From assembly GCA_039033415.1 (NCBI GenBank), contig JBCCCR010000013.1:1-64000 (forward strand): DNA of 64,000 nt, in the 5' to 3' direction. Below, one piece after another: positions 4,507-45,413 of the stretch (position 1 is its first letter; every line of letters begins with the position of its first letter). The notes beneath the pieces are model-generated. The model was not told the origin of the DNA. It did not search any database and saw nothing but the letters and a program-made list of their open reading frames with translations. Both the position numbers and the translations under genes were made by a program. This DNA comes from Pseudomonadota bacterium (lineage in GTDB: Bacteria > Pseudomonadota > Gammaproteobacteria > Xanthomonadales > SZUA-38).

Positions 4507-7500
4507 TTACTCAAATCCGTCGGCAAAAACCCTCGCTGATAGCAGCTCCGTTAGCGCCTGAGCCTGGGGCGGGCGCTGCTGCCGGTGACCCACCCGGTCT
4601 GTCGCCACCGAGTAGAGGCCGATCAGGGTGCCGTCAAACTGCGGCAACGCGGCCTCGGTCCGCGTTGTGCTCAGCAACCACGGTACAAAAGGCTCGCCGT
4701 CGATGGATACATAGACATCGTAGTGGGCGACTCCTGAGCCGGCGCCGTCCGAGCCGGCCCAAGAGATCTGCATGCCGACCAGGCTCCGGGCCGGTAGCGG
4801 CGCCACGGTGCTGGTCGGTGGATCTACGTCTAGCCGGTGCTGCGTCTCGTTGGTAATGATCGGCGGATTGTCGTCGAACACGATGTTTGCGCTGTTTACA
4901 ATCTCAACTCCCGTCGCAAGACCGGCGAGCGAAAGTACCTGATAGCTGACAAACCCCTCACCCCGCCGCAGCACATCGTTCACCGGCAAAAAACCTGCCA
5001 GATCGTCTTCGGTAGGCTGTCCGGTGGCGGGATCGATGCTGCTGAATGACCAGGTGACAGTCCGAGACTGAAAATCCAGCTCCACTGCGACGCGCGCATC
5101 AACTTCGTTGTCCTGGGCTCTCAAGGAAATCGTCGTCTCATAGGCATACAGTCCGGGCGGAACCGGCACCACCTCACTGCCCACCGCAATCTCGGTAAGC
5201 TCAAATGTGGCCAGGTCCAGATCCTCATCCAACACGTCGGTAATAGTCACAAACTGCGCGGGAAGCGTAGCGAGGTTTGGGTCGTTCTCGAAAAAAATAG
5301 TGTACGGCAGTACAACATCGCCGTGGACAAATCCGTCGGCACCCAAAATACCCACCTTTTCGTTGGGGTCGTACGAAGCTCGCACATCCACACCACGCTC
5401 CGTGTCAGGCTCTTCGCTATCGGTTTGCTGCTTTTCCCCAACCTGCGAGGATGCCCCGGCCTTCGCCTCGTTGACCTCGATGGGAATACTGTCTCTACCA
5501 CGGGAGTCAATCATGCCCAGTTGCAAATGCTGACGCTGCTTCAAACGGGATGCGCGTGCAAAATCTGAATCACCCGAAAGCGTAGTAAATTTTGATGAGG
5601 GAACACGTTCCAGGGGGGGCGCAGTGGTTGACCCGGGATCACCGGGGTTTTCTTTTCGATAGTAGTCGAGGTAGTAGCGCAGTTCCTGTCGGCCCGATTG
5701 AAATTCGCCTTCGCTGAAGGGAATGTCGGCGGCCCTCTCGAGCCATTTTTTTGTTAAAGCGCCTCGGGCGGCCATTATTAAGTCGGGCTCGCTGCCCATA
5801 GCCTGTAGTTCGCTCAAAAAGATCTGGGAAGTTGAATTTGCGTCTACCGCGGATTCAAAGTAGTCAGTGCTCGTAATGTTAACCACGTTAGACGCGGTGA
5901 TCTGCTCGGTATAGCTCGCCGAGCGGCACGTATCTGCCAGGAACACAACCGTTGCGTCGGTGCCTCCAAATCGTCGATTGAGTTCGTCCCCATGAACTTT
6001 CTCCCCGCTACTGAGCACGATAGCGCCTTTGGGGTCGTCGCGATCGCAGATGCCGTGAGACGCAAGATGAACAAATACCGTATCGTTTCCGTCCGCTTCA
6101 GCAATGGCCGCGTCGATCGCATCGAAAAACCGTTTGCGGGAAACCTGGGTACCATCGGTGTCACCGACGAGCTGCGTCGTCCAGCCTTCGGGTTTGTTCA
6201 GGCCCGTATCGAAGTAGTTGAACAGGTCCGCTGCGTCCTTCTGCGCGCCTGGCAAACTCCCAAAACCGCCGCTTCCCGAATAGTCCCCGGAACCGACAAA
6301 AACGCCATGTAGATCCTGGGGATTGCCGGAATTGCCAGCAGGCTGGTGAAGCTGCGGACCCTTTTTGGTCTCTTCCTCGGTTTCTGATTTGCCTACAGGG
6401 CCTGAGTCCTCTCCAAGCACTCCTCGAAACTCTGGCCCCCCGGGCGCCAGCGGCGGCGGCTGAAACAGCACCTGTCCCTCAGCAAAAACAAGATTGTCAT
6501 AACCTTCACCGTCGAGCGTTATGTATTCAGCCGCAACAAGGTCAAACAGCTCGGCAAAGGTCTCGCCCACGCGAGCCCGCTCGCCCGCAATGCGCGCTGC
6601 CCAAAGGCCAGCGTCCACACCCGCCGGCAGCGTTTCCTGCTCGATTACATCCCAGTCGAATGAAGAACCGCCGAAGACAGGGCTACTCGGACTGTCGGCC
6701 CAGGCAGACAGGGTAACGCCCATTGTTTCCAGCGGCGCATTGAAATACAGAGGCATTTCGCCGCGAGACCCTGGCGGCATCACGGCAGACCCGGCCAGCA
6801 CCGGAGGCGGCACCAGGTCCCAGTCGCGGCGGGTATCCGTCGATTCGCGCCGCAGCTGCAGGCTGCCCGCGCTTGTCCCTACCGCAACGTAGGGTAACCG
6901 GGCGTCCACGTTGCTGAGGTTTTGGTAGCTCAGAGTAAGCCGGGCCTGTCGGCCGGATCGCATCACCGATGGCGCCAGTAATGACACGGCAATATCCGGC
7001 GACCGCGCGGCCTCCATTGTCACCGCGTCAGGCAGTGACGCCGCTTCGGTGCTGTTTTCAACAACCACGAGATCGTAGGCACCCAAGGGCGTACCATTCA
7101 GTTCAAAGGTCGCGTAGACATCTCCGGAATTCGTGCGACGCAGGGCCTGCGCGCTGATTTGCGTGCCACCGCGCCGGAGACGAAAAGCCAAGGCCTCGCT
7201 GAGTTGATCTCCTCTGATCAGCAGCGTGGCGCTGCCCACGTTGCCGACGACCTCAGGGAATACGGTATCGATGCGAATGGGTGCAAGCGCTGCGCTGATG
7301 GTGAAGTCGCCGGGCTCAGCAGCCAGCACAGCCGGAAAGGCGTAAACGTAATAGATGTCCGGATCGGTCCGTTGGGAGGACGCTACGGAAACGTCGGCGG
7401 CGCCCAGGGGTTCATGACGATGATCAAAGTCGAAGCGGCCGGGCATACGATCCGCTCCGAGGTACAGCTCCGTGACGCCGTCGTTTTCCAACTCCAGCGT

Positions 7501-10500
7501 TATCTGCACATCGCGCCCCACCGGGGAGCTGACGCGAAACCATCGCGGAGAGGACCGCGCAGGAAATTGGTCCGATTGGGGCGCTGCACCCACAAGAAGT
7601 TCGGGCACGTCCAGTGTAAAAACCTCTGCCGCTTCGAACTCGTTGTTGGCACGACCTTCGGTTTCAAACACATCGGCTCGGCGGTTTGAAAATACGGCCC
7701 AGCGATAGTCACCAAGCTCCGCCCCGGGTACCGTGAGGTCTGCGCTCAACTGAGTGGATTGGCCGGGTGCCAGCATCAGGTCACTAGGCACGCTCACTTC
7801 GGCCACGGGCATTGGCTCGCCGGAACTGATCCACTCGATCGGGTCGGTTCCATCAATAGGAATCATCCGTTGGACGCTAAGCGCCTCAAACCAAGGTCCG
7901 CGAGCGACGTCAGATCCCTGGTTGGTTACGGTCCACTGCACCTGCACTTCGCTCCCCGCCAGGGCCACTGGTGGCGCGGTGATACCTGAGGGAACAAGAT
8001 CGACCAGGGGTACATCACCGGCAAACAGGAACAGGTTGGCGTCGTCATAAGCGCTGGAAAACACGGGCTCTGCGCCAAGAACCTCGTCAAATCGAGAGCC
8101 GTTGAGCATGCTGGCGCCAACCACCTGATAGCTGTCGTCAAGCACCGGCGTAAAGCCATCCTCCAGGGATACAAATAGAGATCCATCGAGCTGTGCGTCG
8201 CCGGTCACGACCAGCCTTCCAAACTGGCCTGTTTGCGGCCGTCCACCAACGGTAACGGCAATGGAGCCGCCTTCCGAGGCGTATGCGCCCGCTACGCCAA
8301 ACTGGCTGCCCGCACCGAGCACGATAGCCCCGCTGTTGGCGAAGTCGGAGGCGGTCGTAAACGAGGCGCCATCGCGGAGCAGGAGGAGTCCGCTGCTGGA
8401 ACGAAGGTTGGAAATCCCCGTGAGCATAGCGCTGCTGCCCGCCAGGGTAATAGTCGCTTCGCTGCCGGTAATGTTGACGTCCGCCGGGAGGTTTAAGGTA
8501 GCTTCCGTGGCGGACCAGGCGCCGTCCGAAAGCACCTCGGCGTCCAGCGGGCCAATCGATTCCATGAGCGTGAGGCTGCCGCTCCTGACGTCCAACAGAC
8601 CACGGTTTGTGAAGACAAAGTTCGCTAGATCTTGAGGGTCATGTAAGAGCGTTTCGCCGCCCCCCGCGGTTTTGGAGAATGTGCCTAAATTGAGAAATTC
8701 CAGCGGTCCGAATGCGCGCGCCCCAACAACAGTGAGATCCGCATCCGACTGAAACTCGAAAGAACCGGCGTTCTCAACCTCAGCGATGGTCTGAACTTCG
8801 ACGTCGCCCTCTCCAGCGACGATCAGTGACCCGGTATTGGTAAAACGGGCGGCGATTCGCTTGGGTTCGGCGCCCGTCAGGGTAAGAGTGCCGCGATTGG
8901 CTACCGTGCCGCGAATTTCGCCGCTATCCCATTCCAGCAGGCCATCGGGAAAGTCCATAGAAACAGGATCTGTATCGCTACCGCGGAAGGGCCCGGCGAT
9001 GCGAATAAGGCCCTCTCCCTCGCCGGAAAAAACGCCTGAGAAAATCAAGCTCGTACTTGAGCTACCGCTAAGATCCAGCCTTGCGCCGCTGTTTACCAGG
9101 AGGAATCCACCATCGCTGCTCCCCCGCTCCCAGAGAAACTGTCCGGACAAGATCTCCACGCGGCCGTCGATGTTGTTTAGCCTGACGAAACCCAGGGAAA
9201 ACGGCCCGCTGCCCGACGACTTGCGCCAGATGCCCTCGTTGTTGACGTCGCCACTGCCGCTGAAGCCTGCTTCGCTGCCGAAGTCGTAGAGGGCGTCAGC
9301 GCGATTATCGATGCCGCGAAATCCGCCGCCGGCGAGCACTAAATCCCCTTCGGCATGATGAACCGTCCCTCGGTTTTCGATCACCGTATTGATCAGCGTT
9401 TTGGCATCCGGACCATCGAGCGTGATAAAGGACTGGTTTGTGAGAACCGAGTTTGCGAACGTTCCGCCCTGCCAGAAGAATTGCCCGTCAGGGAAGTCAA
9501 AGATCAGCCCTGGATCGTCAATGTTGATTCGTCCGCCCGACAGGCGAATCTGTCCTTGACCCGAGCCCGTAAAGGTCCCGCTCAACACCATCGGCGGCCC
9601 GGTGTCCCCGGTTAGGAAAAGCGTTGCGCCATCGCCAACGTCAAAGTGGCCGCCCGTTCCCTCTCCGCCCCGAAGCTGGAGCCGTCCGGAATCTACCTCG
9701 ATACGGCCACCCAGGTTATTGAAATCGACCGTGTCCAGGTCCGCGGTTCCGCTACCCACCGACTTTTCCAACCGACCCTCGTTATTGAAAGCGCCCCCTC
9801 CGCCGAAGCTCAAGTCGCCTTGCAGCTCATACAGGGCGCCGGCGCGATTGTTTACGCCCCGAAACCCACCACCGGCCAGGGTCAGCTCGCCTCCGGTGTG
9901 GCGTACCGTGCCCTGATTTTCGATGACTGTGTTGCTTAGCGTCTTCGAGTCCGGCCCAGACAGGGTTAAAAAGGCCCGATTGATCAACTGCGAACCCGCC
10001 ATCGTGCCGCCCTGCCAATGGAACAACCCATCGGGGAAGTTGAACGTCAGACCAGCGCTGGCAATCTGCAGTCGCCCTCCTGGCATACGGACTTGTCCAA
10101 GCCCGGAGCCGGTGTAGATTCCACTCATTGTCATCGGCGCGCCTGTGGCGCCAGTCAGGTCAAGGGTTGCGCCGCTGGACACTTCAAAATGACCGCCGCT
10201 TCCCACCCCGCCCCGGAGCTGCAGACGCCCGGAAACGACCTCGATACGACCGCCGGCGTTATTCAGGGCAATCGACTCCATGTCGACCGTGCCGCTGCCA
10301 CCGGACTTCAATAGCACCCCTTCATTGTTGAAATCACCGCCGCCACCGAAGCTCACGTCGCCGCCCAGTTCGTAAAGCGCCGCATCTCGATTATTCACGC
10401 CACGAATCCCGCCGCCGCTGATGACTAGTTCGCCTTCCAGATGCCTCACGGTTCCGGTGTTTTCGATTAACGTGTTGGACAATATCTTGGCGTCCGGCCC

Positions 10501-11481
10501 GGATAGGGTAATCAACGATGGGTTGTTTAACCGAGATCCGGCCAGCGTTCCGCCTTGCCACAGGAACATCCCATCGGGAAGGTCCAAAGTCAGGCCTGGA
10601 TCGTTGATCTGCATCCGCCCAGCTGGCATCAGAACCTGCCCCTGACCCGAACCTGTGAAGTTCCCACTCAATGTCATTGGCGACCCGGTGGCCCCGGTTA
10701 GACTCAGCGTCGTTCCAGCCTGGACCTCTAAGTGACCGTCCTCACCTTCGCCACCACGCAGCTGCAGATGGCCGGCGCGAACCTCAATGCGACCATCCTG
10801 GTTGTTCAGATTGATGGGTCCCAGGTCGACCGTGCCGGTTCCAGCCGATTTGAGTAAAGTCCCCTCATTCGTGAAATCTAGACTGCTGCCTCCGAAGCTC
10901 ACATCCCCAGCGAGCTCGTACAAAGCACCCGCCCGATTGTTAATGCCGCGGACCCCGCCGCCACCAATAACGACTTCGCCCGCCAGGTGTTGAATCGTGC
11001 CTTGGTTGTTGACCACCGTATTGATGAGCGTCTTCGTCTCGGTGCCAGCCAACACCAGTGTGTCAAGCACCGTCATTTCCACAGCCGAAACGGAGCCGGA
11101 ACTGAACGTGCTGGTGCCACCAATCGTCGCCTGGGCCGTTCGAAGCACACCGTTGGCTAGGTTTAACCCGGCATCAAACGTGGCTATACCGCTGGACCGC
11201 AGATCACCATCGTCTTCGATACTGACGCGCTCGTGCGCGTGGATCTCCAACACCTCTGCCGTCGAGGAGCTCACCCGAACGATGAACGTTCCCCCCGGCC
11301 GGTCAATGCAAACCACTTGACCAGCCGCAGGCTCCAAGCCTGTGTCCCAGTTTGAGTCCGTACTCCAGAAACCGTCAGAGTCGACGTTCCAAGATACGTC
11401 GCAGTTCTGAGTCCAGGCGGGAGAGGCAGTTAGCAACAACGGCCACAGCCACCTTGAGTTGCGCCGAATTAGGTTTGTCAT
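4507..11481 (-). CDS. Giant exported protein with tandem beta modules, caspase-like domain and FADGFE tail
   Basis: About 2,324 residues from the ATG at 11481, which gives a clean signal peptide (MTNLIRRNSRWLWPLLLTAS, then PAWTQ); the frame is open 17 codons further to a GTG at 11532. Order: about four tandem beta-solenoid-like modules of about 181 residues (each with IENxGTVRH, GGGxRGxNNR, YEL and FNNEG signatures), a CARDB-like domain (near residue 1160: LVPSGITAPPVALAGSEVQV), a caspase-fold (peptidase C14) domain around 1745-1900, a 'DPNEK' domain typical of bacterial surface proteins, and a terminal fibronectin/Ig-like domain. The caspase dyad is visible: His1809 in LASHGICD and Cys1852 in LADTCRSAS, so it is probably an active Arg/Lys- or Asp-specific cysteine peptidase on the cell surface or outside the cell. 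The protein ends RVFADGFE. It lies immediately left of the first tRNA-Asn fragment repeat. No strong ribosome binding site was seen before either start. Confidence 0.85.
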   Translation of the reverse strand: MTNLIRRNSRWLWPLLLTASPAWTQNCDVSWNVDSDGFWSTDSNWDTGLEPAAGQVVCIDRPGGTFIVRVSSSTAEVLEIHAHERVSIEDDGDLRSSGIATFDAGLNLANGVLRTAQATIGGTSTFSSGSVSAVEMTVLDTLVLAGTETKTLINTVVNNQGTIQHLAGEVVIGGGGVRGINNRAGALYELAGDVSFGGSSLDFTNEGTLLKSAGTGTVDLGPINLNNQDGRIEVRAGHLQLRGGEGEDGHLEVQAGTTLSLTGATGSPMTLSGNFTGSGQGQVLMPAGRMQINDPGLTLDLPDGMFLWQGGTLAGSRLNNPSLITLSGPDAKILSNTLIENTGTVRHLEGELVISGGGIRGVNNRDAALYELGGDVSFGGGGDFNNEGVLLKSGGSGTVDMESIALNNAGGRIEVVSGRLQLRGGVGSGGHFEVSSGATLDLTGATGAPMTMSGIYTGSGLGQVRMPGGRLQIASAGLTFNFPDGLFHWQGGTMAGSQLINRAFLTLSGPDSKTLSNTVIENQGTVRHTGGELTLAGGGFRGVNNRAGALYELQGDLSFGGGGAFNNEGRLEKSVGSGTADLDTVDFNNLGGRIEVDSGRLQLRGGEGTGGHFDVGDGATLFLTGDTGPPMVLSGTFTGSGQGQIRLSGGRINIDDPGLIFDFPDGQFFWQGGTFANSVLTNQSFITLDGPDAKTLINTVIENRGTVHHAEGDLVLAGGGFRGIDNRADALYDFGSEAGFSGSGDVNNEGIWRKSSGSGPFSLGFVRLNNIDGRVEILSGQFLWERGSSDGGFLLVNSGARLDLSGSSSTSLIFSGVFSGEGEGLIRIAGPFRGSDTDPVSMDFPDGLLEWDSGEIRGTVANRGTLTLTGAEPKRIAARFTNTGSLIVAGEGDVEVQTIAEVENAGSFEFQSDADLTVVGARAFGPLEFLNLGTFSKTAGGGETLLHDPQDLANFVFTNRGLLDVRSGSLTLMESIGPLDAEVLSDGAWSATEATLNLPADVNITGSEATITLAGSSAMLTGISNLRSSSGLLLLRDGASFTTASDFANSGAIVLGAGSQFGVAGAYASEGGSIAVTVGGRPQTGQFGRLVVTGDAQLDGSLFVSLEDGFTPVLDDSYQVVGASMLNGSRFDEVLGAEPVFSSAYDDANLFLFAGDVPLVDLVPSGITAPPVALAGSEVQVQWTVTNQGSDVARGPWFEALSVQRMIPIDGTDPIEWISSGEPMPVAEVSVPSDLMLAPGQSTQLSADLTVPGAELGDYRWAVFSNRRADVFETEGRANNEFEAAEVFTLDVPELLVGAAPQSDQFPARSSPRWFRVSSPVGRDVQITLELENDGVTELYLGADRMPGRFDFDHRHEPLGAADVSVASSQRTDPDIYYVYAFPAVLAAEPGDFTISAALAPIRIDTVFPEVVGNVGSATLLIRGDQLSEALAFRLRRGGTQISAQALRRTNSGDVYATFELNGTPLGAYDLVVVENSTEAASLPDAVTMEAARSPDIAVSLLAPSVMRSGRQARLTLSYQNLSNVDARLPYVAVGTSAGSLQLRRESTDTRRDWDLVPPPVLAGSAVMPPGSRGEMPLYFNAPLETMGVTLSAWADSPSSPVFGGSSFDWDVIEQETLPAGVDAGLWAARIAGERARVGETFAELFDLVAAEYITLDGEGYDNLVFAEGQVLFQPPPLAPGGPEFRGVLGEDSGPVGKSETEEETKKGPQLHQPAGNSGNPQDLHGVFVGSGDYSGSGGFGSLPGAQKDAADLFNYFDTGLNKPEGWTTQLVGDTDGTQVSRKRFFDAIDAAIAEADGNDTVFVHLASHGICDRDDPKGAIVLSSGEKVHGDELNRRFGGTDATVVFLADTCRSASYTEQITASNVVNITSTDYFESAVDANSTSQIFLSELQAMGSEPDLIMAARGALTKKWLERAADIPFSEGEFQSGRQELRYYLDYYRKENPGDPGSTTAPPLERVPSSKFTTLSGDSDFARASRLKQRQHLQLGMIDSRGRDSIPIEVNEAKAGASSQVGEKQQTDSEEPDTERGVDVRASYDPNEKVGILGADGFVHGDVVLPYTIFFENDPNLATLPAQFVTITDVLDEDLDLATFELTEIAVGSEVVPVPPGLYAYETTISLRAQDNEVDARVAVELDFQSRTVTWSFSSIDPATGQPTEDDLAGFLPVNDVLRRGEGFVSYQVLSLAGLATGVEIVNSANIVFDDNPPIITNETQHRLDVDPPTSTVAPLPARSLVGMQISWAGSDGAGSGVAHYDVYVSIDGEPFVPWLLSTTRTEAALPQFDGTLIGLYSVATDRVGHRQQRPPQAQALTELLSARVFADGFE
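8870..11040 (-). repeat. Internal tandem coding repeat, about four copies of about 543 bp
   Basis: Comparable positions recur at about 10,987, 10,441, 9,897 and 9,357 (the codons for the N-T-V/L-I-E-N-x-G-T-V motif), giving a period of 540-546 bases, or about 181 residues. Copies differ at many third positions and some amino acids, so the array is old rather than a recent slippage product. The fourth copy is the most diverged. Confidence 0.85.
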
Positions 11482-11770
11482 AAAGCTGATACCGATTGGA
11501 TAAAGACCGCAAAACCCGAATGCACCCTTCACTACTGGCTCCGAGGAGCACGGCGGCGTTTACCGAAAAATCAAACCGCGATTAAACGTAGGCTCGCAAG
11601 CCCCGCAGTTGCCAGCGAGTTGATCGTTGCGGCCAGTAACAGGGCAATCCGGCCAAGCCATACCGACCATTGTTCGTCCGACATATCTATAAACGGCGAA
11701 TTTTCTACTCACATTGGATCATACGATGCTTTTGACCGTCCCGGGTTTTCCCGAAACCATTCAGCGTGAG

Positions 11771-12668: not shown

Positions 12669-15365
12669 ATGAGTTTACGAAGAATTCCGCTAGCTCTAGC
12701 CGTTTCCTCAGCGCTCACCGGATCTGCGACCTGGGCTCAAGAGTCGATTGAACTGCGAGATCTCGATGGCAGCAACGGGTTCATGGCGAAAGGCGGCGAC
12801 TCATTCATCCTCTCGGGCCTTTCAGTGAGCGGCGCCGGCGACGTGAATGGTGATGGTATTGACGACATCATCATCGGCGCGTCTTTCGCCAACCCCGACA
12901 ACAAATTCTATGCCGGCCAAAGCTACGTGCTCTTTGGTCGAAACGCGCCTTTGAGCGGGAGTGTCGAACTCAGCAATCTGGATGGGACCAACGGATTTGT
13001 CTTAAACGGAATTGATCCATATGACTATTCCGGAAGGTCAGTCAGCGGCGCCGGCGACGTTAACGGCGATGGCTTGGATGACGTGATTGTCGGGGCTTAC
13101 CGCGCTGATCTGGGCGGCAAGTCCTTTGCGGGCGAAAGCTATGTCGTGTTTGGCTCCGACACGGGCTTTCCCGCCGGCATCGACCTTGACAGCCTGGATG
13201 GCAGCAACGGTTTTGTCTTGAACGGCATCGAAGCCTTCGATACCTCGGGACGGTCAGTCAGCGATAGCGGCGATGTGAACGGCGACGGTATTGATGACTT
13301 GATCATCGGAGCTGAAAATGCTGACCCGGGTGAAAACAGCTCCGCCGGCGAAAGTTATGTGGTTTTTGGCCGCAGCATTGGCTTTTCCTCTACCATCGAT
13401 CTCGAAAATCTGGACGGGCTTAACGGGTTTGTCCTAAACGGAATCGGAATCGGCGATCGATCGGGTCGCGCCGTGAGCGACGCCGGCGATGTGAACGGTG
13501 ACGGGATCGCGGACCTCCTTATCGGCGCGTATGCAGCCGACCCCGGCGACAATTCGTCCGCCGGTGAAAGCTACGTAGTATTCGGTCGGGACACCGGCTT
13601 TTCCGCAAGTGTTGACCTTGCTGATCTCAACGGCACCAACGGTTTCGTCATGACCGGCATCGACGCAGGCGACCGCTCCGGACTCGCCGTGAGTAGCGCT
13701 GGTGATTTGAATGACGATGGCTTCGATGACCTGATCATCGGTGCAGATTTAGCCGGCCCCGATAGCCGGCCCTTAGCCGGTGAAGGCTATGTCGTGTTTG
13801 GTCGCGCCACTGGCTTTTCTGCGAGCATTGACCTTGGCAGTCTGAATGGCAGCAACGGTTTCACGCTCATCGGCGCGGACAGTAACGACCGTGCCGGCCA
13901 CAGCGTGAGTGGCGCTGGCGATGTGAACGGCGACGGCATAGCAGACCTCATCATCGGCGCAAGCCGCGGCGCCCCCGACGGCAACGGTTTCGCTGGCGAA
14001 AGCTACGTTGTATTTGGTCGGCGTACAGCTTTTCCCCCGAGCATAAGCCTAGGCGATTTGAATGGAGCCGATGGTTTTGTCATCAACGGCGTCGACCCGG
14101 GTGATGCATCGGGAGTTTCGGTAGGCGGTGCCGGCGATGTCAACGGCGACGGTATCGACGACCTCATCATTGGCGCCAGCGGCGCCGACCCGAATGGAAT
14201 CTCGGGGGCCGGCGAGACCTATGTTGTTTTTGGCAACGCAGCGCCGGCAAGTCTTGGTGATACGGCCTTCCTGTTCGACGAGCTTGAGGACGACACCAGC
14301 GCCAGCGGCAGTCGCCTCGACTTTAGCGTGGCGGCCAGCTACCTGGACGTTGATCCATTTGGCGGTCTAGCGATCGTGGATGTTCATTCCGTGGCCAGCG
14401 AAGGGCAGTGGCAATATTCCCTGGACGGAGTCAGTTGGCTCAACCTATCCAGCAACACCAGCGATACATCTGCCCAGGTCCTGTCGAGCGAGTCGTTTCT
14501 TCGCTTTGTGCCCGCCGCGAACTTCACAGGCCAACCTGGCCCACTCAGCGTGCGGCTCTGGGATGGCCGCTGGCGGCAGCCGGGCAGCAACGTGAACATC
14601 ATCAACGCGGTCGGCGCCCTCGGGGGCTTTTCTACCGACGACCACCTGCTGGACGTTACCGTCAACATCACGCCGGTGAATGACGCCCCCAGCTTTGCCG
14701 CGAGCAATCCACCAACGGTAAACGAAGATCCAGACGGCGTCACCGTAGGGAGTTGGTCGGCCTTCAATCCAGGCCCTGGCGAGGGTCAACAGTTTGCGCT
14801 GGCCTACCAGGTGGCCAGTGTTTCCAACCCGGGCCTGTTCTCGATACTCCCTACCATCGACACCCTCGGCAACCTGGTCTATGACACGCGTCAGGATGTA
14901 AGCGGCACCAGCACCTTTGACGTTCGGGTGGTGGATTCCGGCGGCATGGCCAACGGCGGTGTTAACTTCTCCGGGTTTCAGACCTTTACGATCACGGTAA
15001 ATCCCGTGAACGATCCGCCGAATCTGATTGCCGAAAACCCGCCGGCGAGCAGCGAGAACGACGGGCCACAAACGGTCTCGAACTGGGCCCGCGTCGACGT
15101 CGGCGCACTGGACGAGGCCGGCCAGGAGGTCAGCGTGAGCGTGAGCGAAGTTTCCAACCCGGCGCTGTTTACGGTGCCACCGGCGGTGGATGCCAACGGC
15201 ACCCTTACGTACACCGCGGCTCCTCAGAATACTGGCACATCCCGCTTTACCGTCATCGCCAGCGACAACGGCGGTACGGCAAACGGCGGCGAGAATGCTT
15301 CACAACCGCAGCAATTCGAAATCACGGTGCTGGGTGAAGTCGTGTTTACGGACGGCTTTGAGTAG
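12669..15365 (+). CDS. Exported FG-GAP beta-propeller protein with VFTDGFE tail
   Basis: An 898-residue protein with a signal peptide (MSLRRIPLALAVSSALTGSA, cleavage near TWAQ) and a strong GAGGAG ribosome binding site. Residues about 28-520 hold seven FG-GAP/integrin-alpha repeats, each with a calcium loop of the DVNGDGIDD type and a GESYVVFGR strand. They are predicted to form one Ca-binding beta-propeller. Three Ig/cadherin-like domains follow, two beginning with PVNDAP or PVNDPP, a signature of cadherin-like bacterial surface modules. The last eight residues are VVFTDGFE. The protein at 40201-42888 on the other strand has the same architecture and nearly the same length. It probably acts outside the cell in adhesion or matrix binding; no enzymatic residue was noted. 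Confidence 0.88.
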   Translation: MSLRRIPLALAVSSALTGSATWAQESIELRDLDGSNGFMAKGGDSFILSGLSVSGAGDVNGDGIDDIIIGASFANPDNKFYAGQSYVLFGRNAPLSGSVELSNLDGTNGFVLNGIDPYDYSGRSVSGAGDVNGDGLDDVIVGAYRADLGGKSFAGESYVVFGSDTGFPAGIDLDSLDGSNGFVLNGIEAFDTSGRSVSDSGDVNGDGIDDLIIGAENADPGENSSAGESYVVFGRSIGFSSTIDLENLDGLNGFVLNGIGIGDRSGRAVSDAGDVNGDGIADLLIGAYAADPGDNSSAGESYVVFGRDTGFSASVDLADLNGTNGFVMTGIDAGDRSGLAVSSAGDLNDDGFDDLIIGADLAGPDSRPLAGEGYVVFGRATGFSASIDLGSLNGSNGFTLIGADSNDRAGHSVSGAGDVNGDGIADLIIGASRGAPDGNGFAGESYVVFGRRTAFPPSISLGDLNGADGFVINGVDPGDASGVSVGGAGDVNGDGIDDLIIGASGADPNGISGAGETYVVFGNAAPASLGDTAFLFDELEDDTSASGSRLDFSVAASYLDVDPFGGLAIVDVHSVASEGQWQYSLDGVSWLNLSSNTSDTSAQVLSSESFLRFVPAANFTGQPGPLSVRLWDGRWRQPGSNVNIINAVGALGGFSTDDHLLDVTVNITPVNDAPSFAASNPPTVNEDPDGVTVGSWSAFNPGPGEGQQFALAYQVASVSNPGLFSILPTIDTLGNLVYDTRQDVSGTSTFDVRVVDSGGMANGGVNFSGFQTFTITVNPVNDPPNLIAENPPASSENDGPQTVSNWARVDVGALDEAGQEVSVSVSEVSNPALFTVPPAVDANGTLTYTAAPQNTGTSRFTVIASDNGGTANGGENASQPQQFEITVLGEVVFTDGFE

Positions 15366-25178: not shown

Positions 25179-25190
25179 ATTGCTCTCCCA

Positions 25191-25214: not shown

Positions 25215-25253
25215 CAGGCTGGAACACAATCCGGCAGGAATCCTGATCTAACT

Positions 25254-31751: not shown

Positions 31752-33158
31752 ATGTCCTACTGGCATAAGCAGTTGGCGAAGGCCGCGGTAGGGACCCTGC
31801 TGTGCCCGCCTTCTCTTGCTCAAAACCTAACGGTTGATCGTCTAGACGACGAGCCAGGTGCGGATATTTGCTCAGATTTCATCGCTGCCGATTGCTCCCT
31901 CAGAGGAGCGCTGGCATTCGCTGAGCAAGTGCCGGGTGATCAGTCCATAAGACTGCCCAGTGGAACATACCTTTTGAATTCGGAACTCGCATTAACTTTG
32001 CCAGACCGAGGTTCAACAACAATCGAAGGTGAAGGTGCCGAAACTACAACGGTAGTCGCAAACGTTGGTTTTCGTGTAATGCGCATCGAAACGGGGGACG
32101 TAACTCTGCGCGGTTTCACCATGACCGGTGGTGACGTAAGGAATACGGACATCGACGTTGGCGGGGGACTCTTCATCGGTTCATTACCTGGGGCCAATGT
32201 TCTCCTAGAAGACATGGTTGTTTCTGAAAACGCGAGTCTCGCCAGAACCGGGGCCGGTATTTTTGCAGGGTCTGGCCTGACTGTGCGTCGGTCTAACATT
32301 TCGAACAACAATGGTGGCGGTATTCAGTCGCTGGGCTTCGCCACAATCGAAGACTCTGTTATCACCGAGAATGATGGGTTTGGCGTTGCTTATGAGAACA
32401 ACGGAGAGGTAGTTCGATCCATCATCTCAAGCAATCAAGGGCGAGGCGTGATTGCAGCTTTTCGGGTTACGGTCGAAGACTCTTTTATTGATTCAAACAT
32501 ATCGGCTAGTCGAGACGGTGGCGGTATCCGTGCAAGCGTGGCAACGATACGCCGAACCACAATCTCGCGGAACACGGCACCTAATGGGGCGGGTGTTTTC
32601 ATCGAGTTGCCCTTGGGTTCATTCGACTCGTTGATTGAGAATTCTACGATCTCCAGCAACAGCGTGCCTTTGACGGGCAGAGGAGCCGCAGTAAGTGTGT
32701 CCTCCGGAGTCGTCTTGACGATGAACCATGTAACGATTGCCCGAAACACAGCTTTTGGGGGTGCGGCCATCGACAACGAAGGTCGTATCGTCGCGAGCAA
32801 TTCGATTTTGAGTGCCACTAACAATGTTTGTCGCGGGTCTCCTCTCGTAACCGCAGGAGGAAACATCGACTCTTCGACGAGTTGCCGCCTGGACTTGGAA
32901 GTGGGAGACATTGAAAACATCTCGTTAGCTGAGTTAGCGCTGCTGCAGCTTGGCGACAACGGCGGCATTGCCCCAACTCATTTGCTTGGCGCGCAGAGCG
33001 TCGCCCTAGAGCATGGTCAAACGTTGAATTGCGCAGATAGAGACCAGCTTGGAAATCCTAGAGACGCATTGAGATGTGACGCAGGTGCTCTGCAACTGTC
33101 TATGATGCGCCCCGAATTCCTGTTCGGCGACGGCTTTGAGAGCCAAAACCATCAGTGA
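31752..33158 (+). CDS. Exported CSLREA beta-helix protein with FLFGDGFE tail
   Basis: A 468-residue protein with AAGGAG 5 bases before the ATG and a short leader (AAVGTLLCPPSLAQ). The opening motif is LTVDRLDDEP...AADCSLRGAL, then a compact parallel beta-helix with N-x-x-GGGI turns (about residues 70-380). A choice-of-anchor Q-like stretch (NCADRDQLGNPRDALRCDAG) is followed by the tail EFLFGDGFESQNHQ; eight residues follow the GFE, the longest extension in the set. It is shorter than the three other family members here. Base composition is lower in GC than the flanking chromosome (many AT-rich codons), as in the next gene, which suggests separate acquisition. Confidence 0.84.
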   Translation: MSYWHKQLAKAAVGTLLCPPSLAQNLTVDRLDDEPGADICSDFIAADCSLRGALAFAEQVPGDQSIRLPSGTYLLNSELALTLPDRGSTTIEGEGAETTTVVANVGFRVMRIETGDVTLRGFTMTGGDVRNTDIDVGGGLFIGSLPGANVLLEDMVVSENASLARTGAGIFAGSGLTVRRSNISNNNGGGIQSLGFATIEDSVITENDGFGVAYENNGEVVRSIISSNQGRGVIAAFRVTVEDSFIDSNISASRDGGGIRASVATIRRTTISRNTAPNGAGVFIELPLGSFDSLIENSTISSNSVPLTGRGAAVSVSSGVVLTMNHVTIARNTAFGGAAIDNEGRIVASNSILSATNNVCRGSPLVTAGGNIDSSTSCRLDLEVGDIENISLAELALLQLGDNGGIAPTHLLGAQSVALEHGQTLNCADRDQLGNPRDALRCDAGALQLSMMRPEFLFGDGFESQNHQ

Positions 33159-33296: not shown

Positions 33297-34604
33297 ATGC
33301 ACTTGCCGCGCATCATTCCCTGCCTGTTGCTTTGCTCGTTTTCGTGTGCTGCCCAGGAATGCGTTACTACAAACGTAACAGCCGGGTCGAGTCGAATAAG
33401 TGATCTCACAGCGACTATTATCACCGACCCCATCCGAATCGTTGTCAGCTATTCCAACTCTACGAGAATCAGAGATGCCGCTCATTTTGATGCTGACGGA
33501 AGCGATATCGTCGTCACCGGTGAGATTGTCGATTTGGTCCCAAGCGATAGCGCCGAGACCGAGACATTCCATACGGTGACTCAGTCGGGGCGTGTATATC
33601 GTCATGATGCCAACAAGCCAAGTGCCTTGAGGGAAGTCTGGGTAAACGACCTTAGGCGAGCAAGTTGTTCGTCCGATTCGTTGGCGACAGCGGTTTTTGC
33701 CCAATACGAAAAAGCATCGCCGGAGTTTAGACAAAATTTTGACACATCTATGTTGGTCGTAGGAACACGATATGCCTGTGCCACTGGGCGATCTGACAAC
33801 CGCGTTTATGCGTTAGATTATGAATCGGGCCGAATCCTCTGGACATTCAATGGCAACGCAACTGTTGATTTAGACATCATAACGGGCATGCTTCTTGATC
33901 TAGAAAATGACAGAGTGTTCGTAGCTACGGACAGAACGCTTACCTCGGATCAAAACAGCCTATGGGCTCTTGATTTGACAGGCAATAAGTTATGGTCTGT
34001 TAACTTGGGGCAGTTGGCGGGAGCGCCGCAGTTAAGACAAAACCGTCTCTTCATAAATACTCTTGCTGGCACCATTCACGCTGTCAACGCCGATTCTGGC
34101 GAAAGTCATTGGTCTTTCCCGTTGAATGATGAGGGTCCGAGGCCTGCCCCATTCGGACTGGTTGCTCCAAAAAGCGGAGAGTTCAACGATGACGTCATCA
34201 TCGTATGGGATTTCCTTGGCGAGCTGCATGCCATAAGAGACGCCGGAGATTCGGCCATACCAGTCTGGACTCGTTTCTTTGAGCCCGCCGTTTCGCAGAC
34301 TGACTTTCCGGCGCCTAGATTTCAGAATTTTCGAACACCCTTAAGAATCGTCAAAAACGGGATGACTGTTTTTGCCGCGGGTGATCAAGGAGCGGTCTAC
34401 GAGGTTGATATTTCTTCTGGTTTAGTTACGCGTACGCACGTAGTAGACAACGCCGACGTCCCCCTAACTGCGATTGACGGATATGAGTCAGAAAATCTCG
34501 AGGGTGAGGCAGTAATCGTTGGAGCGGAAAACGGCAAACTGGCAAGAGTCTGCCCAACAGAAGAAACTGTGTTCGTAAGTGGGTTTGAACCTATGGACAT
34601 TTGA
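33297..34604 (+). CDS. Exported PQQ-like beta-propeller protein with VFVSGFE tail
   Basis: A 435-residue protein with a strong GGAGGGAG ribosome binding site and a signal peptide (RIIPCLLLCSFSCAAQ). Repeated blades carry the quinoprotein-type W motif: VYALDYESGRILWTF, LWALDLTGNKLWSVNL, IHAVNADSGESHWSF. These are of the BamB/PQQ-repeat kind, but no cofactor-binding residues can be assigned, so a scaffolding or binding propeller is more likely than a dehydrogenase. Tail: TVFVSGFEPMDI. It lies 138 bases after the beta-helix gene on the same strand with no terminator seen, so probably co-transcribed. A-T rich codon use resembles that gene. Confidence 0.82.
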   Translation: MHLPRIIPCLLLCSFSCAAQECVTTNVTAGSSRISDLTATIITDPIRIVVSYSNSTRIRDAAHFDADGSDIVVTGEIVDLVPSDSAETETFHTVTQSGRVYRHDANKPSALREVWVNDLRRASCSSDSLATAVFAQYEKASPEFRQNFDTSMLVVGTRYACATGRSDNRVYALDYESGRILWTFNGNATVDLDIITGMLLDLENDRVFVATDRTLTSDQNSLWALDLTGNKLWSVNLGQLAGAPQLRQNRLFINTLAGTIHAVNADSGESHWSFPLNDEGPRPAPFGLVAPKSGEFNDDVIIVWDFLGELHAIRDAGDSAIPVWTRFFEPAVSQTDFPAPRFQNFRTPLRIVKNGMTVFAAGDQGAVYEVDISSGLVTRTHVVDNADVPLTAIDGYESENLEGEAVIVGAENGKLARVCPTEETVFVSGFEPMDI

Positions 34605-37786: not shown

Positions 37787-39421
37787 TCAACCGCCGTCGG
37801 TTGCCTCAAAGCTGTCCGCAAAAAGGTCGTCACAGCGTATATCAGCGCTGAACAGCTCCTTGACTCCGGCGGTATTCTGATCGGCGATGTATACCACCCG
37901 CTGGCCGTCAAGGGATTGCTGAAAGTCGTCGCCGCCCGAGCTTCTCACCTCGGCTCCCTCGGGAAGCGGCCTGTTGATACGACGAACGGGGCCGCTAGTG
38001 GTGAGCGACACGGCGAATAACTCCTGCTGGCCGTCGGTCAGAAAGTCGCCGGTGAAGACTAGCTGCAGGCTGTCGGGGGTGATCTCAAAATCGCGAATTC
38101 CGCCGTTCACGACGCTGGTTCCGGTCAATGACCGGTCCATGGCGCCCGCAATGGTAGTGGTGCGCAGCGATGTAGTGCCGTCTGACCCCAGCGCTCGGTA
38201 AGCGACTCTTTGGCCATCTGGCGAGATGGCGAACTCCGAGGCAAACCCAATTTGCGCGGGGCTACCGCTGATTCGATTCACCGTTCCTCCGCTAATCGGG
38301 ACCGTCATGATCTCTCGTGAGTTATCGAATTCAGCATCAAACACAACCAGGGACCCGTCTGGAGTGAATTCGAAGCCTCTGACAGAGTTAATGGAGATTG
38401 CCGAAGTTAGATGAAAGGGCGTGCCGCCAGCCAGCGGCGCCGCCCAGAGTTCGGCAACGAAGGTATTGCCCGAGGCCCGGGAGATTAGATAAACCACCAG
38501 CGATGAGTCCGGGCTGATGGCGTATTCCCTCACGTCCGACTCAACCTCGGGCCCATTGACCTTGATCGGCGTGCCGCCCGCCACCGGCACGCGAAACAAC
38601 TCGAACCTGTTGTCCGTTTCCTGATTGGCCTGGTACACCACCGTCGTTCCGTCAGGAGACACCTGAAACTCCGAGACGGTGCCTCGGTTGTCGGCGTTTT
38701 CGTTGAGCTGAACCCGATTGCCACTTTCGAGCTCTGCGCTGAAGAGGTCTCGAACAAAGCTGATCTCTTCGGCCCGAAAAATGACATACTCGCTATTGCT
38801 GGTAATCTCAAAGTCTCGCTCCACGCTGCGTGAGGTCTGGAGCGGACCGTTCAGCTTAAGCACCTCACCCCCGTTTATAGGGACCCGATAGAGCTCCTCT
38901 CGACGGTCAACGTCCTGGTCGGCCAGGTATACGACCGTATTGTCATCCGGGCTAATGGAAAATGAGCGAATGTCGCCTTCGTTGACCAGCGTCGAATTGA
39001 GCTTGGTTAGCGGACCACCGCCGGTGGCCGTGGTCACGCTAAAAATCTCATCGACATCCAGCGTCTCAAAGTCACCGATGATAACCGCCCGTTCGGTAGC
39101 CGAGGCAATCTGGGGAAAGGCATTCAAAAAACGGCCAGGAATACGATTGATGTCAAACAACGTGGGCGGCGCACTGCCATCCTGAGGCACGGTCAGCGCA
39201 TCGAACTCATCGTCAAGTACGACGTCGGCGAGAAAGACCACACGATCGGTTCCATCCAGCGCTACCTGAAAGCCCGCGATTTCCTCCTCAGGAGCCAGCG
39301 GAGCGTTCAGCCGTACGTTCTGGCACTGCAGAACGCCCGGTGACCCGCCGGCTGATGCTGAGGATATGGTGATAAGGCTGAGGGCCAAAGCCCGCATCGT
39401 CGTCGATCCAACTGAAGTCAC
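37787..39421 (-). CDS. Exported TolB-like beta-propeller protein with LFADSFE tail
   Basis: A 544-residue protein starting at a GTG with AAGGA six bases upstream; an ATG nine codons in is possible. The leader MRALALSLITISSASAGG is followed by repeated WD40/TolB-type blades with F-x-I-S-P-D-x-x-x-V-V-Y and ELYRVPINGG or ELFRVPVAGG, about nine in all. They bind or scaffold, with no enzymatic residues. Tail: DDLFADSFEATDGG, the only set member in which the Gly of GFE is Ser. It lies just right of the integrase remnant at 37.3-37.6 kb, in the position expected of element cargo. Confidence 0.82.
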   Translation of the reverse strand: MTSVGSTTMRALALSLITISSASAGGSPGVLQCQNVRLNAPLAPEEEIAGFQVALDGTDRVVFLADVVLDDEFDALTVPQDGSAPPTLFDINRIPGRFLNAFPQIASATERAVIIGDFETLDVDEIFSVTTATGGGPLTKLNSTLVNEGDIRSFSISPDDNTVVYLADQDVDRREELYRVPINGGEVLKLNGPLQTSRSVERDFEITSNSEYVIFRAEEISFVRDLFSAELESGNRVQLNENADNRGTVSEFQVSPDGTTVVYQANQETDNRFELFRVPVAGGTPIKVNGPEVESDVREYAISPDSSLVVYLISRASGNTFVAELWAAPLAGGTPFHLTSAISINSVRGFEFTPDGSLVVFDAEFDNSREIMTVPISGGTVNRISGSPAQIGFASEFAISPDGQRVAYRALGSDGTTSLRTTTIAGAMDRSLTGTSVVNGGIRDFEITPDSLQLVFTGDFLTDGQQELFAVSLTTSGPVRRINRPLPEGAEVRSSGGDDFQQSLDGQRVVYIADQNTAGVKELFSADIRCDDLFADSFEATDGG

Positions 39422-40200: not shown

Positions 40201-42888
40201 TCATTCGAACCCACTGGCGAATAGCAGATTGGGGCGGATTTCGATAACAAAATCCACTGGTGCGGATTGATCCTGTCCGCCGTTGGCACGGCCACCGTCG
40301 TCACTGACGACAACGGTAAAGGTAGAGGTGCCGGTGGCGTCACACGCGGGCGTGTAACGGAGATTTCCGGATTCATCGAGAGTTGGCAGCGCCTCGAACA
40401 GCGAATCGTCTCCTACGCCTGTTACAGCAAACGTCAAGGCCTGACCAGACTCATCAATGGGGCCAGTCGCAGCGAGAGCCCAATTGCGTACGATTTGCGG
40501 ACCACCGTTTTCGGTGACGGGCGGTGGATCGACGGCTATGAGAAGTGGCGAATCATTCACCGGATTGACGGTAATTGTAAAGTTCTGAAACTCAGAGGCG
40601 TTGTCTCCTCCTCTGTCGCTCCCGCCAGAGTCAATCACCCGGACATCGAAGCTGCTTACGCCATTCGCATCAGGCGCGGGATCATAGATTAAGTTTCCCA
40701 ATGTGCCGATAGTAGGCAGAACGGAAAACAATTCCGGGTTAGAGATGTTTTCGACCTGGTAAAGCAAAGCGAACTGATCAGCCTCATTTTCAGGACCAGC
40801 GCTGAAGCTGGCCCAGTTTTCGAGAATAATGCCTCGGTCATCCTCGCTAATTTCAGGTGGCTGGGTAGCTATAAAATTCGGAGCGTCGTTTACCGGTTGG
40901 ATTTCTAGCCGTATATCAACTAAATGCGGGTCCGTAGAAAATCCACCGAACGCACCAATAGCGGAGGTTATGTCGATGTTTTCGCCGGGTTCCCGCCAGC
41001 GCCCATCCCAGAGTCTCGCGGTGAGTGAACCGGCCTGCCCAAAAAAATCGGGAGCTGGAACGAAGCGCACCAGGTCCGTTGATCGGACCACCAGCGCTGA
41101 CTCATCGCTAAGCTCATCGGGTAGATCGACCCAACCATCCGCGATGCTCTTGTACTGCCAGCGACCCTGAACCGCAGAACTGGCGTCTGAGATTATTGCC
41201 GCACCGCCAAATTCATCAGAGTCCAGGAACGCCGCCGCCAGCGTAAAATCAAGGGCGTTTCCATAAGACTCCAGTTCATCCTCGGTTTGGCGTCGAAGGT
41301 CAACGGCGCTGGTACGGGAGAGCGGAGTGCCATTGCCGAAAACGACGAACGCGAGGCCGGACTGCAACGCGTCATTCCTATCTCCTACCAGGAAATCGTC
41401 AATACCATCGCCGTTAACGTCGCCCGCCTTCGCGACAGCAAATCCAAATTTCTGAGAACCTTGATTCCCTTCAATAACAAACCCATTGCTGCCGTTCAGG
41501 GCAGACAAATCTAAATCTGGAGCAAAGTCAACGGTTCTGCCAAAAAGCACATAGGTTCTGCCGGCCAGCGGGGATTCGCCAACTGGTGCATTGGGTGCGC
41601 CAATCAACAGGTCATCAACGCCGTCGTTGTTAACGTCACTAGAGAATCTCACCGCGGTGCCTGAGGACTCACCGCTGTCTATTCCTTCGACGATAAAACC
41701 ATTGCTGCCATCCAGCTCAGCCGCATCGATGTTTGCGGGGAATGGCGATGAGTGTCCAAAAACAACAACGCTGCGACCTGCGCCAGGTCGGCCAGCAGGA
41801 CTAGCCGTTGGAGATCCCAATACAACATCTGCTATGCCGTCGCCGTTGATATCGCCCGATGCACCAACGGACTGACCTAGATTTCCCGGTGAGGCATTGT
41901 CGGTTATCGAAAAGCCATTTATGCCATTGAGACCGCCGAGACTTAGCTGACTGATCGACGGATTGTCGAACCCAAATACGACTAAACCTCCGCTTTCAGT
42001 GCCGGGCGAGCCGATCAGTAAGTCATCAAAGTTGTCGCTGTTAACATCACCGGCAGTGCTTACAGATTGGCAGGCGCTTCCGCCCAACTCAAATCCTGAT
42101 AGTGTGAAACCGTCGCTACCATCCAGCCGAGATAGTTCAAGTTCAGCGGGAAAGCCCTCCGAGCGGCCAAAGACCACATAACACTCCCCTGCAGCGAATA
42201 GCCCACCTGGTTCTGCGCTGGGAGCACCGACAACCAAATCGTCTATTCCATCGCCGTTGATGTCGCCCGCCCTGCCTACGGCGCGGCCGGATCGGTCGAG
42301 CTCGTCGGCCCCGTTCAGAGCAAATCCGTTGCTTCCATCAAGACTGGAGAGATCGAGAGAAGGGGGGAACGCCGAGTTCTTGCCAAACACTACAAACGCT
42401 TGTCCGGCGTAGGATTTGCCTCCGGGCGCGGCGTTGGGTGAACCGACAATAACATCATCCAGTCCATCGCCATTGATGTCGCCAGCCGCACTCACTGCAA
42501 AGCCGGCTCGATCGAACTCGTCGAAACCGTTCAAGGCGAAGCCGTTTCTGCCGGTCAAGTTTTCGACCGAAATTTCAGTGTTCGACTGGCTTGTCCGACC
42601 AAAAATGACGTAAGCGCTACCCGCCAGCCCAATTCCGTTGGGTGCTGCGTTGTAGGCACCCACGATGATATCGGCTAACCCATCACCATTGACGTCTCCG
42701 GCCGCTGCCACTGAGGTGCCTAATCGATCCCCAGTTTCAATGCTGGAAACGACAAAACCGGCGTTGTCATAAACAGAATTCAGGTCAAGTACATTCTGCG
42801 CAAGGCCAATTCCCGCCGCCGATAGCCCCACCGCGATCGCAATCGACAGAGAGCGCAGCCTTGGTGCCGTTTGATCTCGCCCGGTCAC
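40201..42888 (-). CDS. Exported FG-GAP beta-propeller protein with LLFASGFE tail
   Basis: An 895-residue protein with signal sequence SLSIAIAVGLSAAGIGLAQ. Seven FG-GAP repeats (DVNGDGLADIIVGA, GDINGDGLDDVIVGSP and similar, each with a Ca-binding DxNxDGxxD loop) span about residues 35-510. They are followed by the same three Ig/cadherin-like domains as the plus-strand paralogue at 12669-15365 (QPVNDAPNF, NPVNDSPLL). The tail is PNLLFASGFE. The two genes are in different tRNA-bounded units and opposite orientation, so they were not made by a simple local duplication. No strong ribosome binding site was seen. Confidence 0.88.
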   Translation of the reverse strand: MTGRDQTAPRLRSLSIAIAVGLSAAGIGLAQNVLDLNSVYDNAGFVVSSIETGDRLGTSVAAAGDVNGDGLADIIVGAYNAAPNGIGLAGSAYVIFGRTSQSNTEISVENLTGRNGFALNGFDEFDRAGFAVSAAGDINGDGLDDVIVGSPNAAPGGKSYAGQAFVVFGKNSAFPPSLDLSSLDGSNGFALNGADELDRSGRAVGRAGDINGDGIDDLVVGAPSAEPGGLFAAGECYVVFGRSEGFPAELELSRLDGSDGFTLSGFELGGSACQSVSTAGDVNSDNFDDLLIGSPGTESGGLVVFGFDNPSISQLSLGGLNGINGFSITDNASPGNLGQSVGASGDINGDGIADVVLGSPTASPAGRPGAGRSVVVFGHSSPFPANIDAAELDGSNGFIVEGIDSGESSGTAVRFSSDVNNDGVDDLLIGAPNAPVGESPLAGRTYVLFGRTVDFAPDLDLSALNGSNGFVIEGNQGSQKFGFAVAKAGDVNGDGIDDFLVGDRNDALQSGLAFVVFGNGTPLSRTSAVDLRRQTEDELESYGNALDFTLAAAFLDSDEFGGAAIISDASSAVQGRWQYKSIADGWVDLPDELSDESALVVRSTDLVRFVPAPDFFGQAGSLTARLWDGRWREPGENIDITSAIGAFGGFSTDPHLVDIRLEIQPVNDAPNFIATQPPEISEDDRGIILENWASFSAGPENEADQFALLYQVENISNPELFSVLPTIGTLGNLIYDPAPDANGVSSFDVRVIDSGGSDRGGDNASEFQNFTITVNPVNDSPLLIAVDPPPVTENGGPQIVRNWALAATGPIDESGQALTFAVTGVGDDSLFEALPTLDESGNLRYTPACDATGTSTFTVVVSDDGGRANGGQDQSAPVDFVIEIRPNLLFASGFE

Positions 42889-43889: not shown

Positions 43890-45413
43890 TTATGGGAGCT
43901 CAAACCCGTTGGCGAACAGCACGAGGTTGAGGTCTGCGGTGAATATGCCCGAGGTGCCGTCTTCAAACCGCAGGTTAAAGGCCAGTCTTCCATCTGGCGC
44001 GAAGCCGTCGTAGCCCCCGCGCGTAGCGAAGCCGAGCGTATCGACCAGGCTCACAACCCGAGCCTCCCCGCGCACGTCAAGAACATCGCCATTTTCAAGC
44101 ACCACAAACCACTGGTTATTGGGCAAACTCGCGCTTAGGCGGGAAATGGTTCCCGTACCTCCGCTGGAGGCGATCTGCCCAAGCGCGTTGGCAAGGCTGA
44201 AACGGCCCTCTCGGTAGCCGGCGGGCAACTGATCTCCCTCCCTGGCAAGCACAGTCAACTCACCGTCGAAGTACTGCCAGATCGAGTTATCGTTTTCGAG
44301 TTCGAAGCTGATACCCGGGCCCTCCAGCAGGGCATTGAACAGCACGTGTCCGTTGCCCGAGAACTCAGAGCCCCCAAGGGATCGGAAGGTAGCCCCGGCG
44401 ATTCCGGGGGCGGGGTCACCTTCAAGCGCAAGGGCCGAGAGTACGCCATCCGCAGAACGACGAAAAATGCCTCTGCGCCTCGTAGCGGGGCTACCGTTAT
44501 CAGTTACGGCGGCAAAGAATAGAAGCGAACCGTCGGCCTCTAAGGACAGTCGCCCAAAAAGCAGCTCAGTGAAAAACTGAGGTGGCTCCAGGCCTGGGAT
44601 TTCCTGCCCGTCGGCGATGACGAGCTCGGCTTCGCCGCGGCCTTTGCCACCCAGCCAGATGCCTGGGAACTCGCTGTCGCCGTCAGCATACTGACCGTAG
44701 AAGGCTAGAATTGGCCCTCGAACCACGCCGTCAAAGACCTGTGAGATGGTTGCACCAGCGCCTATGGAGGGCACCGGATCGCCGGTTCGACTGACCAGCG
44801 TAGGCTGTTGATCCAGCGCGGAAGCCAGATACAGGGCGTCCGTATCGGACGTGGCGCCGTCGAATATGGAGCTTGAAAAGAGGATCTCACCATCGTCGGA
44901 GAGAAAGGGAAGGAACTGAGTGAGATCAAAAACCCCGCCGCTGATTCCAGGCGCCGGATCGCCAGACACACCAAAGGCGCTAATGGTCTCCGTCTCGATG
45001 TCGGCCACCACGATGGCGTTTTTGCTGTTGCCATTAACGCCCGTGCCTGAAACTTGAAACCGGATTCCTGTAAGTCCAGCTTCTGAGATCGGATGGGGCT
45101 GGCTGGCAATGGATTCAGCCACAGATCCACCGGTACCGGGCACCACGTCACCAACTTCGATGAGCGGCATAAACGGCCCATCGAGTGTTTGCTGCGCCCA
45201 AAGTCCGCGAATGCCGCCGGCGTTCACGATCACCGCCGCCTGGCCACGACCGTTAATGGCGTAACGTTCCGGCGATTCAAACTGAACCCCTGCCCGGTCT
45301 GGCACCGGATCGCCGTCCAACAGCAGCGGGCGGATCGTAAACGGTTGCGCGCCGATGGCCACGCTGCCGAGCAACAGGCAGCTCCCAATTGCACTTATTC
45401 CAAACTTCGTCAC
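43890..45413 (-). CDS. Exported NxxGxxAF tandem-repeat protein with LFANGFELP tail
   Basis: A 507-residue protein with signal peptide GISAIGSCLLLGSVAIGAQ. Repeated strands of the family include AINGRGQAAVIVNAGG, FLSDDGEILFSSSIFD, FSGNGHVLFNALLEG and FAPDGRLAFNLRFEDG, alternating with a second motif GDPVPxxGAxxxxx (GDPAPGISGGVFDLTQF, GDPAPGIAGATFRSLGG). It is a likely beta-propeller exported to the surface. Tail: LNLVLFANGFELP. It is the intact counterpart of the truncated protein at 15628-17688 and is the right-most member of the FxxGFE set, just right of repeat copy 3. Confidence 0.85.
   Translation of the reverse strand: MTKFGISAIGSCLLLGSVAIGAQPFTIRPLLLDGDPVPDRAGVQFESPERYAINGRGQAAVIVNAGGIRGLWAQQTLDGPFMPLIEVGDVVPGTGGSVAESIASQPHPISEAGLTGIRFQVSGTGVNGNSKNAIVVADIETETISAFGVSGDPAPGISGGVFDLTQFLPFLSDDGEILFSSSIFDGATSDTDALYLASALDQQPTLVSRTGDPVPSIGAGATISQVFDGVVRGPILAFYGQYADGDSEFPGIWLGGKGRGEAELVIADGQEIPGLEPPQFFTELLFGRLSLEADGSLLFFAAVTDNGSPATRRRGIFRRSADGVLSALALEGDPAPGIAGATFRSLGGSEFSGNGHVLFNALLEGPGISFELENDNSIWQYFDGELTVLAREGDQLPAGYREGRFSLANALGQIASSGGTGTISRLSASLPNNQWFVVLENGDVLDVRGEARVVSLVDTLGFATRGGYDGFAPDGRLAFNLRFEDGTSGIFTADLNLVLFANGFELP

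Follow-up and report, generated by a model that had tools for sequence, protein, structure and literature searches.

The window analysed here, a stretch of 64,000 nucleotides, carries eleven genes for exported proteins that end in nearly the same few residues, and it raises the question of what such a tail could do on proteins that otherwise have little in common. All eleven tails were verified at the positions that an earlier note on this DNA had given. The genes end in [LIV]F-x-[DNS]-[GS]-F-E followed by a variable number of residues; the earlier note had counted 0–8 after the Glu, a range that we correct to 0–5 in the window and 0–7 genome-wide. The chance expectation for FxxGFE or FxxSFE tails was 0.005, with a maximum of 1, in 200 shuffles preserving dinucleotide content (ORFs of at least 100 aa). 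The tagged genes are the following.

4507..11532, minus strand: 2341-aa exported protein with a weak caspase-like domain; tail ARVFADGFE at the stop, tag 4510-4527
12669..15365, plus strand: FG-GAP/Big_9 protein; tail EVVFTDGFE, tag 15345-15362
17795..19858, plus strand: beta-helix protein, weak choice-of-anchor Q; tail SLFANGFEPQ, tag 19832-19849
20148..20624, plus strand: 158-aa exported protein without known domain; tail FLFGNGFED, tag 20601-20618
20634..22659, minus strand: broken gene in three pieces (20634-21230, 21335-22183, 22117-22659); tail FVFLNGFES, tag 20640-20657
23202..25229, minus strand: choice-of-anchor Q protein; tail NLFLDGFEW, tag 23208-23225
31752..33158, plus strand: choice-of-anchor Q beta-helix protein; tail FLFGDGFESQNHQ, tag 33123-33140
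33297..34604, plus strand: PQQ/BamB-like beta-propeller; tail TVFVSGFEPMDI, tag 34572-34589
37787..39421, minus strand: PD40/TolB-like propeller; tail DLFADSFEATDGG, tag 37805-37822
40201..42888, minus strand: FG-GAP/Big_9 protein; tail LLFASGFE, tag 40204-40221
43890..45413, minus strand: DUF7453/NxxGxxAF choice-of-anchor repeat protein; tail VLFANGFELP, tag 43899-43916

The signal peptide of the broken gene lies on the 22117-22659 fragment. A twelfth C-terminal FxxGFE (26264-29206, FFIGFEMKLGG) was left out of the count because it is off-consensus at position +2. The window also encodes a pair of similar exported proteins, each about 600 aa long, that lack the tag (34743-36566, minus strand, and 54290-56044, plus strand) and finish at the C-terminus in a Cys-containing repeat (...CGDPRCEN and ...CGDAACER).

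The motif was not restricted to the window. The 6.4-Mb genome contained 180 DNA matches coding for FxxGFE, compared with 11 for a reversed-pattern control, and together with the shuffles this excluded chance or composition as the source of the tails. Using a strict definition ([LIVQ]F.[DNSTG][GS]FE followed by no more than 8 residues), we found 45 tails in 578 called genes, from about 0.8 Mb of stretches plus the window; in this sample the C1 stretch was unselected and the other stretches had been picked for containing a match. Of 47 looser C-terminal matches, 44 had L, V or I at position -1, 43 had D, S or N at +2, and 23 had D or E at -3. No model of the motif was present among the families matched in NCBIfam or Pfam. 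The searchable open-access literature held no relevant paper on it either, the letter matches being to 'Fangfeng'. One protein in a related genome (L219, G008) carries the tag twice in tandem at its C-terminus (VFQDGFEGARTGVVFADGFE).

The tag was tied to Sec signal peptides, as the earlier note had described for the eleven window proteins. On an unselected 400 kb, a signal peptide was present in 13 of 13 genuine bearers, a figure that rests on inspection because our gene and signal-peptide callers were crude and about 44% of all genes passed the looser signal-peptide rule. Nearly all of the 45 bearers likewise carried one, and where it was missing the 5' end of the ORF was unresolved or broken; the sampled bearers were thus signal-peptide proteins, and the motif did not occur equally in cytoplasmic ones. 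The differing folds of the bearers were also borne out. Forty-five Pfam families were matched among 41 proteins, the commonest in 6 of them, and no domain was common to all. The alignment of the tails was invariant only at the F, F and E of the tag, which, with the Pfam diversity, refutes a shared C-terminal domain. The NCBIfam relatives of the bearers (choice-of-anchor Q, NxxGxxAF, ScyF with PEP-CTERM, RbtA with GlyGly) are families that elsewhere include proteins with other sorting tags. Peptidase_C13 was matched by three of the 41 bearers.

The position of the motif was less uniform than the earlier note had supposed. It was not strictly C-terminal: in three mutually unlike proteins it immediately follows the signal peptide, with no copy at the C-terminus, and a few other proteins have copies in linkers. 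The three proteins are listed below.

G000 C1:198753-200510: N-terminal-tag protein
G000 C3 (L185:6555-7976): N-terminal-tag protein
G031 (L226:1667-2947): N-terminal-tag protein

These N-terminal copies argue against obligatory C-terminal processing and are what would be expected of a docking motif. We also obtained an AlphaFold model of the FG-GAP bearer at 40201..42888, in which the tail (residues 888-895) fell below pLDDT 50 directly after the last Ig strand (878-885). Since mean confidence was 60, from a four-row alignment, only the contrast between Ig strand and tail was used; on that model the tail is likely a disordered, exposed end.

We compared the tag with sorting signals already described. 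A 19-residue stretch with a Kyte–Doolittle (KD) value of at least 1.6 within the last 60 aa was found in only 2 of the 45 bearers, and at least two K/R in the last ten residues also in 2 of 45, so the earlier note was right that the tails lack the hydrophobic helix and basic cluster of the PEP-, GlyGly- and MYXO-CTERM tags. It had also distinguished them from the Por tail of type 9 secretion, in agreement with our finding that the T9SS type A sorting domain model TIGR04183 matched 1 of 41 bearers (3.8e-5) and left 40 without a match. The tag resembles GlyGly-CTERM (PMC3237569) in being short, C-terminal and present on many unrelated signal-peptide proteins per genome, from related families, but differs in having no transmembrane helix or basic end and in its N-terminal and linker copies. 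With PEP-CTERM, MYXO-CTERM and LPXTG it shares a many-to-one logic, and the same choice-of-anchor families bear those signals elsewhere; those signals, however, consist of three parts (motif, transmembrane helix, basic residues) and occur only at the C-terminus, whereas here there are about seven soluble residues. Like the C-terminal domain of type IX secretion, the tag sits on exported proteins of many folds, but the Por tail is a folded domain and the present tail is short, of low confidence in the model (likely disordered) and beyond the last folded domain. Rhombosortase, the processing partner of GlyGly-CTERM, was not found over the cut-off in the window's genome and exceeded it in 5 of 61 relatives, all of them tag-poor; as it does not track the tag, it was excluded as the partner. 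For GlyGly-CTERM and rhombosortase, components of the type II secretion system (T2SS) score high in a phylogenetic profile (PMC3237569).

The tag is confined to the Lysobacterales/Xanthomonadales. Tags followed immediately by a stop numbered 27 in the window's genome versus 0–3 per genome outside the order, at most about the background frequency, which excludes a general trait of the class. The named matches to FA[DN]GFE-stop belonged largely to Dokdonella, Tahibacter, Rudaea, Aquimonas, Marinicella and Lysobacterales MAGs, and those in other phyla were scattered as chance would give. Within the order, the sampled genomes of families f2 and f7, part of f12 and one genus of f8 were tag-poor, and immediate-stop counts were low in f6, f9 and f10.

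Searches with GspD revealed two types of T2SS in tag-rich genomes, designated A and B. System A is a complete canonical T2SS encoded elsewhere in the window's genome, at two unlinked loci: gspC-D-E-F followed by ftsE/ftsX (L197), and gspG-H-I-J-K-L-M-N (L291). Pfam confirmed C, D, E, F, G, I, J, K, L, M and N, and gspH was assigned by position and its N-methylation motif. The ftsE and ftsX genes (L197 14602-16250) lie directly 3' of gspCDEF, and the same arrangement was seen in two f9 genomes (L213, L214). The GspC of system A had T2SSC and PDZ matches, and its model matched the EpsC and PulC PDZ structures and the GspC HR domain; the PDZ of OutC/EpsC governs the secretion of some substrates (PMC12369372, PMC7949064). 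The genes of system B form one complete operon, and in the four genomes examined its gspD adjoins a gene for an exported protein of 505-537 aa, as follows.

L198 7505-9091 (G000:C18): gspD-adjacent exported protein of no known family
L205 7221-8834: gspD-adjacent exported protein of no known family
L202 12303-13820: gspD-adjacent exported protein of no known family
L207 12347-13909: gspD-adjacent exported protein of no known family

In these genera the npdA S-layer genes adjoin a gsp cluster, the gene order of which is that of system B (PMC10765051). By this analogy, system B is probably the npdA-adjacent T2SS and its neighbour protein a putative NpdA. System B was present in tag-rich and tag-poor genomes alike, and therefore T2SS in general were excluded as the partner of the tag.

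System A, in contrast to B, tracked the tag. Taking genomes with at least 8 tag HMM matches as tag-rich and a GspC match at E ≤1e-30 as system A GspC (GspC-A), we found both in 80 of the 349 genomes of the order, the tag only in 5, GspC only in 40 and neither in 224 (Fisher p 8e-42, a significance inflated by relatedness). Four of the five tag-only genomes (G047, G343, G403, G407) had the GspL of system A, and the assembly of the fifth (G058) is 77% complete; GspL, which is unlinked to gspC in the window's genome, tracks the tag too. Because relatedness inflates the p-value, more weight falls on isolated cases. G316 and G462, the only tag-rich genomes of f2, both contain GspC-A. All tag-rich genomes of f7 are in genus g249, with GspC-A in G342 and G377 (92-96% complete). 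In f12, GspC-A was found in the tag-rich genera g14, g23, g247 and g257, and the tag-poor G023, G038, G045, G052 and G059 were without it. The near-complete 4.7-Mb genome G020 (f8), whose sister genera are tag-rich, lacks GspD and tags alike. In a tree, 47 GspC sequences grouped largely by family, with about 9 changes of tag state versus a shuffled mean of 15.4; the tag state is therefore not one clade. The correlation of the tag with a specific protease or transporter gene that the earlier note had envisaged thus held for the transporter genes, GspC and GspL of system A, and failed for the one protease searched for, rhombosortase.

The agreement was not complete. Thirty of the 40 genomes with GspC-A but few tags belong to family f9, and system A without the tag was seen, for example, in G352, G381, G401, G455 and G561. 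A de novo scan of the C-termini of signal-peptide proteins in one such f9 genome, G036, found a variant tail. Ten tails in 400 kb had R at the G position, mostly as F-x-D-R-F-[EQ] (loci L292-L311), and FxxGFE was almost lacking, whereas in the window's genome, over its unselected 400 kb, this position was only G or S; the evidence for the FxDRF[EQ] dialect comes from this one genome. Another G036 locus showed an FDDSFE tail. Neither FxxGFE nor R-variant tails were detected in 200 kb each of G023 and G009, both without system A. No tails were called in the sampled stretches of G561, G314, G307 and G455, all with system A, so the system can occur without any tag found. Two apparent FxxGFE tails were present in G055 (L218, L233), which is without system A, and are apparently remnants or recent acquisitions.

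On balance, and at slightly better than even likelihood, we read the motif as a short linear docking signal by which Sec-exported proteins are singled out as system A cargo. That the bearers are cargo of system A, and that A reads the motif, is inferred from the co-distribution. A bearer would cross the inner membrane via its signal peptide and then fold, and its flexible motif-bearing end would stay exposed after folding. System A would recognise the motif in the periplasm, most plausibly through the PDZ or HR domain of GspC or the periplasmic domains of GspD, by analogy with substrate choice by OutC/EpsC, and the folded cargo would be passed through the secretin to the surface or the medium. 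The weakest step is the PDZ as reader, because classical PDZ ligands end in a free C-terminal hydrophobic residue; the present motif ends in Glu, often with trailing residues. The likeness to cargo of the OutC/EpsC PDZ lies in a GspC with HR and PDZ here and in the flexible exposed cargo regions that act as signals there (PMC7949064, PMC12369372). The known T2SS signals, however, are structural and cargo-specific, whereas here one linear motif is common to scores of unrelated proteins. The prevailing view that T2SS elsewhere recognise their cargo by its structure speaks against a docking signal. So do the genomes with system A but no tags and the tags of G055 without system A. The co-distribution, moreover, does not name the reader, and another co-inherited gene could serve.

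The main rival is surface retention: whether export is by system A or by another route, the tag would act outside as an anchor and not as an export signal, holding the proteins non-covalently on, for example, the S-layer or another surface receptor. Homologues of the bearers are anchored or sorted elsewhere (choice-of-anchor Q, NxxGxxAF, PEP-CTERM ScyF, GlyGly RbtA), a tag that works at either end suits an anchor as well as an export signal, and system B adjoins an npdA-like gene, so that an S-layer is likely in these bacteria. Retention alone leaves unexplained, however, why the tag tracks system A and not the npdA-linked system B, and we regard it as rather unlikely. A dedicated protease or transpeptidase that cuts or replaces the tail, as for LPXTG, PEP-CTERM, GlyGly-CTERM and MYXO-CTERM, would fit the mostly near-C-terminal position, the many-to-one distribution and the variable residues after Glu, which resemble substrates of sorting enzymes; the lack of a transmembrane helix or basic cluster, the N-terminal and linker copies and the distribution of rhombosortase make it improbable.

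The co-distribution itself could be indirect if the tag and system A both marked lineages with a large secretome for extracellular feeding and the reader were a co-inherited protein outside the T2SS. The inflated p-value and the genomes with system A but no tags are in keeping with this reading, but the concordant isolated gains and losses in f2, f7, f8 and f12 and the agreement of two unlinked T2SS loci leave it quite improbable. Common descent of one small C-terminal domain, or chance, has a negligible likelihood: only paralogous sets such as the FG-GAP proteins suit the former, and the Pfam diversity (no family in more than 6 bearers) and the reversed-pattern control stand against both. Of the roles that the earlier note had offered for an undescribed recognition tag, export across the outer membrane is therefore favoured by the tie to signal peptides, the absence of a shared fold and the co-distribution with system A, and processing by a dedicated enzyme is not sustained.

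The choice of cargo by T2SS is a long-standing open question, and no linear universal signal is known (PMC12369372). The tag looks like an address label for a T2SS, of a kind not previously known for type II secretion. More tentatively, and at somewhat less than even likelihood, one portable linear motif would serve as a general T2SS signal, used in each genome by scores of unrelated cargo proteins, and its lineage dialects (FxDGFE, FxDRFE) would co-evolve with the apparatus. If the docking reading is true, cargo choice by T2SS becomes a testable problem of peptide binding, the motif could provide a portable secretion tag, and secretomes would be predictable from sequence across a whole bacterial order.
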